NCBI GenBank assembly: GCA_018828145.1
Contig: JAHJWO010000010.1
Span: forward strand, 62,001-126,000
DNA length: 64,000 bases
Source: Alphaproteobacteria bacterium
GTDB lineage: Bacteria; Pseudomonadota; Alphaproteobacteria; Rhizobiales; Devosiaceae
Direction of reading: 5' to 3'
Part shown: piece after piece, positions 36,991 to 42,084 of the stretch
Layout: each line of letters opens with the position of its first letter
Numbering within the stretch: the stretch's first letter is position 1
Program-made: the position numbers and the translations under genes
The notes under the pieces: generated by a model
Told to the model about the DNA's origin: nothing
The model's input: only the letters and a program-made list of their open reading frames with translations
Databases searched by the model: none

Positions 36991-37024
36991 ATTAGCATAC
37001 TATGTATTCAGATAGCAAGCTATG
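36991..37024. promoter_or_regulatory. Palindromes in the cytochrome b561/marR divergent promoter
   Basis: Two short palindromes lie here: ATAC-TAT-GTAT (36997-37007) and ATAGC-AA-GCTAT (37012-37023), the second running into the marR start codon. The AT-rich, symmetrical arrangement between divergent genes is typical of MarR binding sites and would allow joint repression. Confidence 0.55.
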
Positions 37025-37468
37025 CAAATGGCCCTGATTCGCGAGAACTCGGCCGGTTACCTCACCAATTGGGCGGCGCGGCTCTTTACCCGCGAGCTGG
37101 AGCGCCAGCTGGCGCCCACCGGCATTGCCCCGGCCTATATGCCCGTCCTCTTCGCCCTGGCCGATGGCAGCACGCTGACCCAGAAGGCGCTGGCCCGCCG
37201 CGCCGCTGTCGAGCAGCCCACCATGGCGGCGACGCTCAACCGCATGCAGCGCGACGGCATGATCACCCGCCGGCCCGACCCCGCGGACCGGCGCTGTGCC
37301 CTCGTGACGCTGACGCCGCTGGCCTTGGGCCAGATCGACGCCGTGGAACGCGTGGTCAGCGCCATCAATACGCTGGCGCTCGAACAGCTGGCCCCCGGCG
37401 AACGCGAGCAGTTCCTGGGCCTTCTGCGCCGGGTGATCGGCGTGCTGGAAGCCCAGGACGCGGCCTAG
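37022..37468 (+). CDS. MarR family transcriptional regulator
   Basis: A 148-residue winged-helix regulator. The DNA-binding region reads LTQKALARRAAVEQPTMAATLNRMQRDGMITRRPDPADRRCALVTLT, with the conserved D-x-R-x wing (DPADRR). It probably represses itself and the divergent cytochrome b561 gene through the palindromes between them. The ligand is unknown. It ends 4 bp from the convergent DHFR-like gene. Confidence 0.92.
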   Translation: MQMALIRENSAGYLTNWAARLFTRELERQLAPTGIAPAYMPVLFALADGSTLTQKALARRAAVEQPTMAATLNRMQRDGMITRRPDPADRRCALVTLTPLALGQIDAVERVVSAINTLALEQLAPGEREQFLGLLRRVIGVLEAQDAA

Positions 37469-37472
37469 CGGG

Positions 37473-38027
37473 CTACGCCTCCCGCCGCGCATAGCGCAGC
37501 ACCACATTGCCCTTGGAGGTCTGCTGGCTGCCCGTGAGCACGAGCCGTGTCGTCGGCGTACCGTCCTCGAACAGCCGCCGCCCCTGCCCGGCCACCACCA
37601 GATGGATGATGAGCGCCAATTCATCCATCAGCCCCGCCAGCAGCAGCTGGCTCACCAGCGACATGCCGCCCATGACCGATATCGTGCAACCCGCCTGCGC
37701 CTTGAGATCGCGCACGAAGGCCTCGAGATCGCCCTCGATCAGGCTGGCATTGCTCCAGCCGAGGTCACCCGGCCTGAGCGTGTCCGAGGCGACGAATTTG
37801 GGCACGGCGTTGATGAAGCCGGCAAAATCCTGGTCCTGTTCGGCATTGGGCCAGTAGCCGGCCCATTCCTGATAGCCCACCCGCCCCATCAGCACCGCAT
37901 CGACATCGGCCATGATGCCGCCCAGCAGCGCCCCCAGCTCGTCATCGAAACTGTCGAACTGGAACGTGTCCGGCGCCTCGGCAACGCCATCGACGGAGTA
38001 GAACAGGCCGGCAGTGAGTTTACGCAT
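37473..38027 (-). CDS. Dihydrofolate reductase family protein (RibD C-terminal like)
   Basis: A 184-residue protein of the DHFR/RibD-C fold: MRKLTAGLFYSVDGVAEAPD at the start, DAVLMGRVGYQEWAGYWP, and ISVMGGMSLVSQLLLAGLMDELALIIHLVVAGQGRRLF. Such proteins bind NADPH but rarely act as true DHFR, so the substrate is unknown. The second of two adjacent ATGs is chosen because GGGAG sits 6 nt before it; the first, 3 bases earlier, is equally possible. Confidence 0.88.
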   Translation of the reverse strand: MRKLTAGLFYSVDGVAEAPDTFQFDSFDDELGALLGGIMADVDAVLMGRVGYQEWAGYWPNAEQDQDFAGFINAVPKFVASDTLRPGDLGWSNASLIEGDLEAFVRDLKAQAGCTISVMGGMSLVSQLLLAGLMDELALIIHLVVAGQGRRLFEDGTPTTRLVLTGSQQTSKGNVVLRYARREA

Positions 38028-38176
38028 CATGGTCTCCCGATTGGTCTGGCAACCTCCCGGCCGCCATCTGCTTGTGCGACGGGCGAAGCAGGCCGATTTC
38101 GACACGCGTCGCGTTTTTCTGGGGCAGCACATCGCTCCGGACAGCCATTCGGCCTCCGGTTGTGCAGGATGGACGG

Positions 38177-38235
38177 ACCCCGAGGCGGATGCCGCCTCTG
38201 GAAACTAAAAAATGAGACGATAGCCGCCTCGGGGT
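38177..38235. repeat. Inverted repeat with 12-bp arms
   Basis: Perfect arms ACCCCGAGGCGG (38177-38188) and CCGCCTCGGGGT (38224-38235) enclose 35 nt. It is the first of three inverted repeats in this gap, with no gene next to it that it would clearly terminate. Confidence 0.7.
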
Positions 38236-38452
38236 GCCGGTTTTTGGAACAGTCCCGGTTATCGCGCAGCATGATCGCTCGCCATGCTGCGGCCGGATCT
38301 CGAACCTGCGCGAGAGGCAAAACCCGCGCCCGGCTCACCCCGCCACTGTTCGCCTGCAGGCCGCCCATGCGGAGTGATGGACCTATTCTAGTCGAGCCGG
38401 CCGGGGCGGGGACAAGTTGGGGATGAAGCTCGAAATTTCCAGCAAACTCGGT

Positions 38453-38537
38453 CGTCACCCTCGGGCTTGACCTGAGGGGACTGCACTTGACCGAGGCTCG
38501 GCAGAGAAGAGCCCTCGGGTCAAGCCCGAGGGTGACG
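38453..38537. repeat. Inverted repeat with 20-bp perfect arms
   Basis: CGTCACCCTCGGGCTTGACC (38453-38472) is perfectly complementary to 38518-38537, with 45 nt between. The CACCCTCGGGCTTGACC arm looks like a dispersed intergenic palindrome of Hyphomicrobiales genomes, not a terminator. Confidence 0.8.
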
Positions 38538-38575
38538 ATCTGTGGGTGGGCGGGGCACTATGCCTCAACACCCCG

Positions 38576-38709
38576 GGTGTCGTCCGGCCTTGAGCCGGGA
38601 TCCATCCTGATATGCTGGTCCTGCCGCCAGGTGGCGCTGCTCATCTCGACCACCTTGCGGCTGCGGCGCACGCCGGGGATGGGCCCCCGCTCAAGGCCGG
38701 GGTGACACC
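38576..38709. repeat. Long imperfect inverted repeat
   Basis: The left arm (38576-38607, containing CCGGCCTTGAGCCGGGATCC) pairs imperfectly with the right arm (38677-38709, containing GCTCAAGGCCGGGGTGACAC). About 70 nt lie between. It resembles a second dispersed palindrome family, distinct from that at 38453. Confidence 0.75.
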
Positions 38710-38822
38710 GTGGGTAGGTGTCGGGATGGCAAGCTTGCCCCCGTCGCCTAAGAGTGTTGCAGTATTGACTCTCGTGAAATCGGCAGATCTGTGGCAACAA
38801 TCGAATCACTAGGGGGCTGCTT

Positions 38823-39653
38823 ATGACGATCTGCGTTGGGGTAAAGGTCAACGACGGAATTGTATTTGTGGCCGACAGCGCTTCATCGCTCGCGCAAACG
38901 GGGCCCGAAGGCCAGCAGATAATCTCGCGCGTTTACAACCATGGCAACAAGGTCTTCAATCTTTTTCGTGGCCTTCCGATCGCCGCCATGACTTGTGGAC
39001 TAGGTGCGTTCGGCAGCGAGTCCATTTCAACCATTGCCAAAGGCATTCGTGTCGAGCTGATGTCCGAAGGTGGCATTGATCGCGATAACTACGAAGTAGA
39101 GGCCGTTGCCCGCGATCGCTTCCTTGCAAAGTTCCAGGCCTTGGACGCCAATGTGCGTTCTGCCGCGTCGTTTGAATTTATTGTGGGGGGTTGTTCATCT
39201 GGCAATGGTGGTAGCGAAATCTGGAAATTCCAGTTTGCCAATGGGGAAGCACCCGAGCCAGTTTGCATAGTTGGGAACGGCGTATCTGACATCATTTGGG
39301 CTGGCCAACCAGAAGCTTGCGTGCGGTTGGTACTCGGCATTTCCTCGCAAACGCCCTCTGTTTTGATGCAAGCTGGACTATCAGAAGACCAATCGACCGC
39401 CCTTGTTCAAGCGATCCGCGCAAGCAGCACCGTGCGTTTGGTAGAACCTGCAATGCCCATCCGTGATGCCATTGCATTGGGAGAATTTTTGGCACAAACC
39501 ACCGCCTCGTTCGTTAAGTTTCTGCCGGGGGCGGATACGGTCGGTGGCGAATTGGATATAGCCACAGTGACCAAATACGAAGGATTTAGGTGGATAAGAA
39601 GGAAACACTTCTACCCACCAGACCTCAACCGGGAGACCGACCATGTCCGATAA
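38823..39653 (+). CDS. Proteasome-fold Ntn-hydrolase-like protein, divergent
   Basis: A 276-residue protein of no familiar named family. After removal of Met the chain begins TICVGVKVNDGIVFVADS: Thr1 and Asp17 match the catalytic pair of HslV and proteasome beta subunits. NHGNKVFNLF then aligns with the lysine strand (Lys33 in HslV; here Lys42, after about 9 extra residues), and MTCGLGAFGSES with the G-F-A-G-G region. Later, FIVGGCSSGNGGSEIWKF and CIVGNGVSDIIWAG resemble the proteasome L-I-A-G-y and G-S-G-S segments, but the usual serine is Asn or Val here. The Anbu family is the closest analogue by eye. GGGGG precedes the start. GC and codon use look lower than in neighbouring genes. It overlaps the next gene by 11 nt. 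Confidence 0.7.
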   Translation: MTICVGVKVNDGIVFVADSASSLAQTGPEGQQIISRVYNHGNKVFNLFRGLPIAAMTCGLGAFGSESISTIAKGIRVELMSEGGIDRDNYEVEAVARDRFLAKFQALDANVRSAASFEFIVGGCSSGNGGSEIWKFQFANGEAPEPVCIVGNGVSDIIWAGQPEACVRLVLGISSQTPSVLMQAGLSEDQSTALVQAIRASSTVRLVEPAMPIRDAIALGEFLAQTTASFVKFLPGADTVGGELDIATVTKYEGFRWIRRKHFYPPDLNRETDHVR

Positions 39654-39834
39654 GGCCACGAAGCGTCCAACTCCAACGGAAGCGCAACCACTAAAGCCAT
39701 TGCCTATGCCGGAGTATGGCTATCAACGTGAGCAGCCAAGCAGTTTTGGATCAACGGCCCAAATAAAGCAGCCCAAGGCGCAAGCTACCAACCGAAGCCT
39801 TGATCTGTCCGGAGTGGTGCTGAACCTCGGCTAG
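39643..39834 (+). CDS. Small Pro/Gln-rich protein coupled to the proteasome-like gene
   Basis: 63 residues. The first 50 are Pro, Gln, Lys and Thr rich and look disordered (MSDKATKRPTPTEAQPLKPL). The C-terminus is short and hydrophobic, SLDLSGVVLNLG. GGGAGACC precedes the ATG, which overlaps the upstream stop by 11 nt, so it is translated with the proteasome-like gene. No family is recognised. Being small, disordered and paired with an Ntn-hydrolase-like protein, it could be a substrate, tag or regulator; this is inference. It lacks the Gly-Gly-Glu/Gln end of Pup. Confidence 0.7.
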   Translation: MSDKATKRPTPTEAQPLKPLPMPEYGYQREQPSSFGSTAQIKQPKAQATNRSLDLSGVVLNLG

Positions 39835-39851
39835 GAACTCCAGGAAACAAC

Positions 39852-39883
39852 AAGAAGGCCCGGGATCGCGCCCGGGCCTTCTT
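39852..39883. terminator. Bidirectional intrinsic terminator
   Basis: Arms AAGAAGGCCCGGG (39852-39864) and CCCGGGCCTTCTT (39871-39883) with loop ATCGCG. It ends the proteasome-like pair on the plus strand and hppA on the minus strand. Confidence 0.8.
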
Positions 39884-39939
39884 CATTCTATCACCCGCCC
39901 TCGTGGCTCGACACGCTCACCATGAGGGCTGCATCGGGG

Positions 39940-42084
39940 CTAGCCCAGATGCGCCAGCACCGCCAGCAGCAGCAGTGCCACGATATTGGTGATCTTGATC
40001 ATCGGATTGACGGCCGGGCCGGCCGTGTCCTTGTAGGGGTCGCCGACGGTGTCGCCGGTGACCGAGGCCTTGTGCGCGTCGCCGCCCTTGTGGTGGGTGA
40101 CGCCGTGGCTGTCGGTGAAGCCGTCTTCGAAGCTCTTCTTGGCATTGTCCCAGGCGCCGCCGCCGGCGGTCATGGAAATGGCGACGAAGAGACCGGTGAC
40201 GATGACGCCCATCAGCATGGCGCCCAGGGCCGAGAAGCCAGCGGCGGGGCCGGCGATCCAGTTGATCAGGAAGAACACCACGATGGGTGACAGAACCGGG
40301 AGCAGGCTCGGCACGATCATTTCCTTGATCGCGGCCTTGGTCAGCATGTCGACGGCCCGGCCGTAATCGGGCTTTTCGGTGCCGGCCATGATGCCCGGGC
40401 GTTCCTTGAACTGGCGGCGCACTTCCACCACCACCGACTGGGCGGCGCGGCCCACCGCCGTCATGCTCATGCCACCGAAGAGGAAGGGCAAGAGGCCTCC
40501 GAACAGCAGGCCCACCACGACATAGGGATCGGCCAGCGAGAAGGTGAGGGTGCCCATGCCCTGGAAGATGGCCGGGGCATCGGGCAGGTTGGCGAAGTAG
40601 ATCAGGTCCTGCGTATAGGCGGCAAAGAGCACGAGGGCGCCCAGGCCCGCCGAACCGATGGCATAGCCCTTGGTGACGGCCTTGGTCGTATTGCCCACCG
40701 CGTCGAGCGCGTCGGTATTGTGCCGCACTTCCTTGTCGAGACCGGCCATTTCGGCAATGCCGCCGGCATTGTCCGTAACCGGACCGAAGGCGTCGAGCGC
40801 CACGACGATGCCAGCCAGAGCCAGCATGGTGGCGACGGCAAAGGCGATGCCGAACAGACCCGCCAGGTTGTAGGTGACGATGATGCCGCCGATGATGACC
40901 AGGGCCGGCAGGGCCGTCGATTCCAGGGACACCGCAAGTCCCTGGATCACATTGGTGCCATGGCCGGTAACCGAGGCCTCGGCGATGGAATTGACCGGGC
41001 GGCGGCCCGTGCCGGTGTAATATTCGGTGATGACGATGATCAGGCCGGTAATGACCAGGCCCGCCACGCCGCACCAGAACAGGCTCCACGGGGTGAAGGT
41101 CTTGTCAGTGGCCTCGATGACGACATTGAGATCGCCGAAGACGAACCACAGCACCGGGATCAGCGCGACCAGCGACAGCACGCCGGTGGCGATGATGCCC
41201 TTGTAGAGGGCGCCCATGATGTTGTTGTCGGCGCCCAGCTTGACGAAATAGGTGCCGATGATCGAGGTCACGACGCAGGCGCCGCCGATGGCCAGCGGCA
41301 GCACCATGCCGATCAGCTTGAACTGCTCGGGCAGGATGATGGCGGCCAGCACCATGGTGGCGACGATGGTGACGACATAGGTTTCGAACAGGTCGGCCGC
41401 CATGCCGGCGCAATCGCCGACATTGTCGCCCACATTGTCGGCAATGGTGGCCGGGTTGCGCGGATCGTCTTCCGGAATGCCGGCTTCGACCTTGCCCACC
41501 ATGTCGCCGCCCACATCGGCACCCTTGGTGAAGATGCCGCCGCCCAGACGGGCGAAGATGGAAATCAGCGAGGCGCCGAAGGAGAGCGCGACCAGCGCAT
41601 CGATGACCGTGCGGCTGGTGGGCGCAAAGCCCAGCATCTGCGTCAGCACCATGAAATAGAGCGTGATGCCGAGCAGGCCCAATCCCGCCACCAGCATGCC
41701 GGTGACTGCGCCGGACTTGAAGGCCAGATCGAGCCCCTTGCCGAGCGAGGAAATCGCCGCCTGGGCGACGCGGACATTGGCGCGCACCGAGACATTCATG
41801 CCGATAAAGCCCGCCGCGCCACTCAGCACCGCGCCCAGCAGGAAGCCGATGGCGGCATAGATGCCGAGCAGGAAGAAGGCGGCGATCAGGATGACCACGC
41901 CGACAATGGCGATGGTGGTATATTGCCGCTTGAGATAGGCCGATGCGCCCTCGCGCACGGCTGCCGAAATCTCCTGCATGCGGGCCGACCCGCTATCGGC
42001 GGCAAGCAGTTGCTGGGTCGTATAGACCCCATAGACGATGGACAGAGCGCCACACACGACGATCAGCCAGAGTGCCAAAGTCAT
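39940..42084 (-). CDS. hppA: Membrane H+-translocating pyrophosphatase
   Basis: A 714-residue polytopic pump with about 16 helices that couples pyrophosphate hydrolysis to proton export. The catalytic loop reads [20 protein letters not shown], then [26 protein letters not shown] carries the lysine typical of K+-independent enzymes, where K+-dependent ones have alanine. Length is standard. It probably recovers energy from biosynthetic pyrophosphate, alongside soluble Ppa. Transcription is separated from the upstream yggU by a long inverted repeat. Confidence 0.97.

Follow-up and report, generated by a model that had tools for sequence, protein, structure and literature searches.

We investigated a pair of adjacent genes in a 64,000-nucleotide stretch of an Alphaproteobacteria bacterium of the family Devosiaceae (assembly GCA_018828145.1, contig JAHJWO010000010.1; the whole of this stretch is called the window hereafter). 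A reading of the letters alone, the original prediction, had described an unfamiliar proteasome-fold hydrolase of 276 residues coupled to a tiny protein of 63 residues, and both open reading frames (ORFs) were found where it had placed them, with an overlap of 11 nt (table 1). The 1012-bp stretch of the pair had a guanine-plus-cytosine (GC) content of 53.8%, compared with 66.7% and 64.6% to either side, and it coincides with the lowest GC of the window, so the low GC that had been ascribed to the pair was borne out. The strongest statement that the data allow is that a putative N-terminal nucleophile (Ntn) hydrolase, with an active-site threonine and an invariant active site, is, judging from its homologues, nearly inseparable from a small, mostly basic, and highly diverged partner.

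Table 1. Features of the locus, in window positions
Feature	Position	Strand	Description
Hydrolase ORF	38823..39653	+	276 aa, ATG start; predicted proteasome beta-fold Ntn-hydrolase, PMI-like, from the short clade; Thr2 as nucleophile, with Asp18 and Lys43
Small partner ORF	39643..39834	+	63 aa, rich in Pro, Gln, and Lys; C-terminus LDLxxVxxN kept in its own clade
Inserted cassette, borders approximate	38719..39854		Sequence between two points separated by 27 bp in a genome of the same genus that lacks the pair
Downstream hairpin terminator	39852..39883		Terminator-like site belonging to the native intergenic region rather than to the cassette
Upstream palindromic intergenic repeats	38450..38720		Native, not cassette borders

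The 276-residue protein matched the Pfam Proteasome family at E 0.21, below the curated cut-off, and 6 of 55 aligned homologues matched it at E ≤ 0.1 (best 2.4e-4). Neither window protein had an NCBIfam match at E ≤ 10, a phmmer search of the window protein against PDB sequences gave none, and the profile of the 55 homologues reached proteasome beta chains in the PDB at a best E of 0.011, amid unrelated helical proteins. Among PHROGs, the hydrolase matched phrog_5990, a family of unknown function (E 2.5e-13), and weakly phrog_8523 (E 0.24). An AlphaFold2 model was then built from 55 sequences, with a mean predicted local distance difference test score (pLDDT) of 89.5 and a predicted template modeling score of 0.87. 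Foldseek matched this model to 585 PDB chains at E ≤ 0.001, and the best VIA-align comparison was with yeast 20S proteasome beta5 (Z 19.4, 188 residues aligned, root-mean-square deviation [rmsd] 2.7), residue 2 of the model lying on Thr1. The model of a long-clade homologue (L090, 427 residues, pLDDT 85.9) gave Z 16.0 with 185 residues aligned and rmsd 3.5 in the VIA-align comparison, and it carries long helical inserts at 101-214 and 287-360. As modeled, the 276-residue protein is a member of the proteasome-like Ntn-hydrolase superfamily, the fold originally proposed for it.

Homologues were collected from viral contigs, genomes, and phage and plasmid records, yielding 118 distinct proteins, of which 103 were full length and 15 partial ones were left out; the start of each was taken as the start codon closest to profile position 1. 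Two length classes were evident, 270-284 residues (n = 14, including the window protein) and 398-478 residues (n = 89). The loci taken were 80 of 164 and 80 of 151 confirmed places in two scans, and the alignments A3 and A4 held 55 and 54 sequences. Because the set comes mostly from IMG/VR viral contigs, near-identical entries included (80 representatives at 80% identity), the frequency of the pair in prophages is not measurable from it.

Thr2, Asp18, and Lys43, numbered with the initiator Met and the last lying in the motif NHGNKVFNL, correspond to the Thr1, Asp17, and lysine of the original prediction. Each was present in 103 of the 103 full-length homologues, all of which begin with Met-Thr, and this invariance suggests that enzyme activity is under selection. 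From sequence and model together, the catalytic Thr1, Asp17, and Lys33 positions of the superfamily are matched in the hydrolase. The spacing from Asp to Lys is 25 residues in the window protein versus 16 in the proteasome (Asp17 to Lys33), in agreement with the roughly nine extra residues foreseen in the first hairpin; it is 20-28 in the window clade (25-28 in 12 of 14) and 16-23 in the long clade. The Gly-Gly (241-242) and VGNG segments noted earlier are likewise present. In the region of the oxyanion-hole Gly47, near column 59 of an alignment whose register is uncertain here, the residue was Gly in 72, Asn in 20, Asp in 6, Ser in 3, and Gln in 2 of the 103 proteins, and the neighboring column 58 was mainly Tyr or Phe. 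Met-Thr is a standard substrate of methionine aminopeptidase, so the threonine would be exposed without a propeptide. In the model, helices 68-80 and 92-105 correspond to H1/H2, the hairpin of strands 21-26 and 32-38 contains no helices, and extra helices (177-183 and 188-202) lie between helices 164-171 and 213-232 as an H3/H4 insertion; in the long-clade model this insertion comprises helices 287-315 and 318-360 (all named by topology). The chain closes with strand 254-259 and a short tail, whose mean pLDDT is 72 and then 48.

A short ORF adjoined nearly every hydrolase. With a rule demanding an ATG at -60 to +40 of the hydrolase stop, a ribosome-binding motif, and 30-75 residues, we found one after 87 of 98 hydrolases (5 of the 103 had too little sequence) versus 32 of 338 control ORFs (Fisher p 2e-51); the controls were mechanical calls of other ORFs of at least 200 residues in the same loci, and since some of them are not genes, the control rate is lowered. 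Nine of the 11 misses gained a small ORF when read by eye, a reading with no control of its own, which raises the count to 96 of 98, and the two hydrolases left (L180 and L184) both look degenerate or doubtful as hydrolases. Within the rule-based set, the small ORF starts between -26 and +29 nt from the hydrolase stop, and in L002, L003, L004, L006, and L025, the window-type small ORF and the hydrolase share 11 or 17 nt. The linkage also appeared when the search was begun from the small protein. In one scan, 14 of 19 pattern matches were confirmed as relatives, and hydrolase sequence lay directly upstream in all 14, one being cut by the contig end and two (the viral contigs L245 and L249) having a broken hydrolase frame. 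For the window type, 3 of 42 were confirmed, all three on contigs already known from the enzyme search; the remaining 5 and 39 matches were left out. A plasmid copy (L013:2952-4450) is broken in frame as well, and sequencing error or decay could account for all three.

Finite ratios of nonsynonymous to synonymous divergence (dN/dS) for the small gene ranged from 0.05 to 0.68, indicating purifying selection, among 91 pairs selected at 45-97% small-protein identity and with dS saturated in many. Examples are L026/L027 (dS 1.40, dN 0.07) and L007/L056 (dS 0.96, dN 0.10), and the close pair L052/L086 had dS 0 and dN 0.02. On these grounds of linkage and constraint in sequence, the 63-residue ORF is a real gene. 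Similarities among enzymes and among partners were correlated (Mantel Spearman 0.40, reached in 0 of 200 permutations), so the two proteins travel together. No enzyme-small protein fusion was recognized by eye among the 103 C-termini. In the E. coli H3 record (L192:6001-7490), the annotation calls the hydrolase hypothetical and lists no gene where the small ORF lies; studies of single annotated genes could thus miss half of the system.

The small proteins are highly diverged. Profiles of six small-protein clades compared with hhalign at a probability below 1%, that is, with no mutual homology, and no motif common to all the small proteins was found. Short stretches are kept within clades, namely the C-terminal LDLxxVxxN in six window-clade sequences and WQ..FNP in one long-clade group of 10 sequences. 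Their mean charge is +3.5 (positive in 80 of 96), and that of the enzymes is -14.3 (negative in 91 of 96), opposite charges that would suit a complex; the charges of partners correlated at -0.30, with no correction for relatedness. For the charge, similarity, and profile analyses, a 30-residue rule hit in L171 was exchanged for a 65-residue frame read by eye. Relative to the enzymes, Lys, Gln, Arg, Ser, and Pro are abundant in the small proteins and Gly and Cys are scarce, a composition that suggests a mostly unstructured protein.

The pair was acquired by insertion at a native site. An empty counterpart is preserved in the same-genus locus L219, to which blastn matched the left flank up to window position 38718 (L219 1379) and the right flank from 39855 (L219 1407), and the left neighbor stands near the right one in 8 of 29 relative loci (L194, L198, L204, L207, L209, L210, L212, and L219). 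Among 101 near relatives, a homologue occurred anywhere in two, the source genome and G016, and the G016 pair (L002) adjoins an integrase gene instead. The acquisition originally proposed is therefore upheld by the empty site, while the border features had been misread. Relatives that lack the pair (e.g., L219, L212, and L199) have a match to the terminator next to the same gene, the empty site of L219 contains the palindromic repeat at 38584-38715, and the palindrome at 38454-38547 has copies close to that downstream gene in L196, L202, and L207 of the same genus. Since the terminator and part of the palindromes sit at pair-less sites, they are neither a terminator of the cassette's own nor its flanking repeats. 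The long ORFs adjoining the pair (37473-38132 and 39940-42084) are both on the opposite strand, and the second we take to encode a membrane pyrophosphatase. No Rfam family matched within 37000-40500 at the gathering threshold, and no sigma-70 consensus promoter was found upstream of the pair. An intergenic segment at 38167-38380 has matches in the relatives L196, L207, and L219, and it too had no Rfam match at that threshold.

The distribution of the hydrolase is patchy. A match was found in 14 of 397 genomes of the order, the source genome included (G270, G325, and G434 with fragments only), and in 11 of 398 genomes of a phylum sample, where some matches were partial. In E. coli, a near-identity query found 9 of 5426 genomes and a more distant query the same 9. 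Among 50,697 phage records, 13 were positive, from Providencia, Stenotrophomonas, Porphyromonas, and Streptococcus phages and satellites, and among 72,556 plasmid records 10, one of them with a partial match. We scanned 133 neighboring proteins (set A7), picked by hand from 278 and mostly of at least 100 residues, and these included repressors, antiterminator Q, endolysins, and integrases; the pair stands in cargo-like positions next to Q, holin, endolysin, or repressor genes. It forms the last genes in three of the four streptococcal satellites viewed. Across 80 representatives, the nearest mechanically called ORF (100 residues or longer, within 1.5 kb downstream) was convergent in 43 and co-directional in 31, and the pair runs opposite to its neighbors in E. 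coli H3 (inverted relative to Q and holin) and in the Stenotrophomonas phage.

We compared the hydrolase with known systems. A survey by Fuchs, Alva and Lupas (2021; PMC8665760) established 22 new proteasome-like groups and described the PMI homologues among them as uncharacterized, with no genomic context that hinted at a function. In that paper, PMI-2 to PMI-6 all have an H3/H4 insertion; PMI-4, with 501 sequences at 90% identity in their table 1, has inserts after H1/H2 and between H3/H4 and is present in phages; PMI-5 has S3/S4 and H3/H4 insertions and is restricted to Proteobacteria; and PMI-2 has the H3/H4 insert without the S3/S4 insert. In the model of our long clade, the proteasome core is extended by helical segments after H1/H2 and between H3/H4; as with PMI-4, the clade is found in phages and in hosts from the Proteobacteria, Firmicutes, and Bacteroidetes. 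From this architecture and distribution we infer that it is PMI-4, an identification made by published description, not by sequence; the small downstream gene is not described in that paper. The window clade, with an extended S3/S4 hairpin and an H3/H4 insert but without a long insert after H1/H2, fits PMI-5, with PMI-2 as the alternative, again by the published description rather than sequence. The hydrolase is less novel than the original "unfamiliar" implied, since enzymes of this sort had been catalogued in 2021. In the open-licence literature, outside which most subscription journals fall, no report of the small partner or of the pair was found. A term search of the available text of the DefensePredictor paper (PMC13092281) and of PMC9519451 gave 0 occurrences of proteasome or Ntn, and PMC12724215, a prophage defense paper, concerns in the portion consulted an unrelated protein with an ATPase domain.

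Other members of the superfamily are more distant. The hydrolase shares with the 20S proteasome beta subunit the predicted fold and the positions of Thr1, Asp17, and Lys33, but identity was 11-17% among the matches shown, and it differs in its inserts, the lack of a propeptide, and the small partner gene. HslV is also a Thr1 enzyme of the same superfamily, but the window hydrolase is larger and did not match the NCBIfam HslV models, in keeping with the earlier view that it is not HslV; among the 55 homologues, two weakly matched one HslV model (best E 0.0095) and one matched another (E 0.035). No neighbor looks like HslU, though the neighbors were not searched against families, nor the rest of the genome for hslU. 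Anbu resembles it in predicted fold (5nyw: Z 18.6, 197 residues aligned, rmsd 2.6), on a par with the proteasome matches, but the window model lacks the long C-terminal coiled-coil helix that follows the last strand in Anbu, and the hydrolase is patchy and mobile and has a small partner; the caution that it is not clearly Anbu was thus justified. Taken together, the original prediction held for fold, triad, acquisition, and linkage, and looking for a fold mismatch, loss of Thr, Asp, or Lys, or homologues that never carry the small gene, we found none of these.

Our favored explanation, to which we give somewhat less than an even chance, is that the two genes form one mobile unit, in which an N-terminal-threonine hydrolase is bound and controlled by its dedicated small protein, maybe as defense cargo. 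Removal of Met would expose Thr1, and the mostly basic small protein would dock on the acidic enzyme and hold it inactive or direct it, in the manner of an antitoxin or inhibitor. A stress, for instance infection by a different phage, would release the enzyme, which might then cut a host or phage protein, and the unit would serve as cargo of temperate phages, satellites, and plasmids for defense or superinfection exclusion. Like a toxin-antitoxin system, it comprises two adjacent, co-inherited genes. Because the rapid divergence of the small protein and its mobile carriage suit conflict among mobile elements, a controlled enzyme used as cargo defense is favored.

Several observations weigh against this explanation. 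Neither window protein had a match in PADLOC-DB 2023 at E ≤ 10, and the best match among the 55 homologues was to LeoBC (two members, E 7.5e-5), the others being weaker. Among the PADLOC matches listed for the 133 neighbors (25 of 66 families), there were DNA methyltransferases and mad2 (three members) and no clear defense island. Phages and satellites of Providencia, Porphyromonas, and Streptococcus have the pair in the same direction as its neighbors; it is likely to be its own transcription unit in some cases (E. coli H3 and the Stenotrophomonas phage), but this is not general. Given the lack of a shared motif and the hhalign result, a common inhibitory mode is unproved. The proposed function is deduced from sequence, context, and model, and an assembly factor or a substrate would give the same linkage.

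Indeed, the small protein may instead be an assembly factor or a propeptide supplied in trans, aiding subunit assembly or activation of the site. We consider this unlikely, although the enzyme begins directly with Met-Thr and lacks the propeptide seen in HslV and proteasome beta subunits, and although the hydrolase stop and the small-gene start are so close that the two proteins would be synthesized together. If it assisted a single conserved fold, the helper should be conserved as well, whereas the small proteins have no detectable homology between clades. A similarly small chance is given to the small protein being a substrate or tag, which the threonine enzyme cuts or transfers to other proteins. 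There is a precedent in connectase, a proteasome-fold threonine enzyme that acts as a specific ligase (PMC8665760) and likewise has a dedicated partner sequence, and the short motifs kept within small-protein clades would fit. Nevertheless, connectase has no H1/H2 and carries an S3/S4 insert of two helices, while our models have helices 1 and 2 and lack that insert. An invariant active site would moreover predict a common recognition motif in the small proteins, and none was found; an aromatic-to-Pro motif occurred in 42 of 96 versus a shuffled mean of 40.1, without excess. About as improbable, in our judgment, is that the pair serves phage or host outside defense, through lysogenic conversion, control of induction, or turnover of a host regulator. 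Sites beside antiterminator Q, holin, endolysin, and repressor can carry any lysogenic-conversion gene, and the absence of a clear defense-island signal among the listed PADLOC matches fits such a role; but small satellites and plasmids carry the pair too, as does a chromosome in which it is a bare cassette free of phage genes, and it therefore does not depend on any one phage program. The least probable proposal, which we regard as a long shot, is phage-borne tagging or processing, in which the threonine enzyme would act on or attach its own hypervariable small protein, a bacterial and viral counterpart of ubiquitin-like tagging, derived from the proteasome side instead of the ubiquitin side and used in mobile-element conflict.

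Whichever applies, PMI homologues run into the hundreds, extend to phages, and are uncharacterized, and the partner gene offers an easily tested handle, as it can be asked whether the small protein binds, inhibits, is cleaved, or is ligated.

Two further observations concern the company that the hydrolase keeps. The long-clade hydrolase adjoins multiubiquitin and ThiF-type E1 genes on four rhizobial plasmids among the seven annotated plasmid loci viewed (L012:1-4600, L013:2952-8183, L189:4930-11407, and L190:4930-11139); L189 and L190 have DUF6527 and ClpP-like genes there as well. We rejected this as a general association with multiubiquitin operons, since 2 of 15 hydrolase genomes contained a Multi_ubiq match and in these draft assemblies it lay on different contigs. 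In the satellites L008:2449-4327, L255:3328-5206, L256:3328-5206, and L257:2335-4191, two genes of matching sizes immediately precede the hydrolase, and in L008, the one satellite scanned, these encode a Gp49-like toxin and a helix-turn-helix protein.
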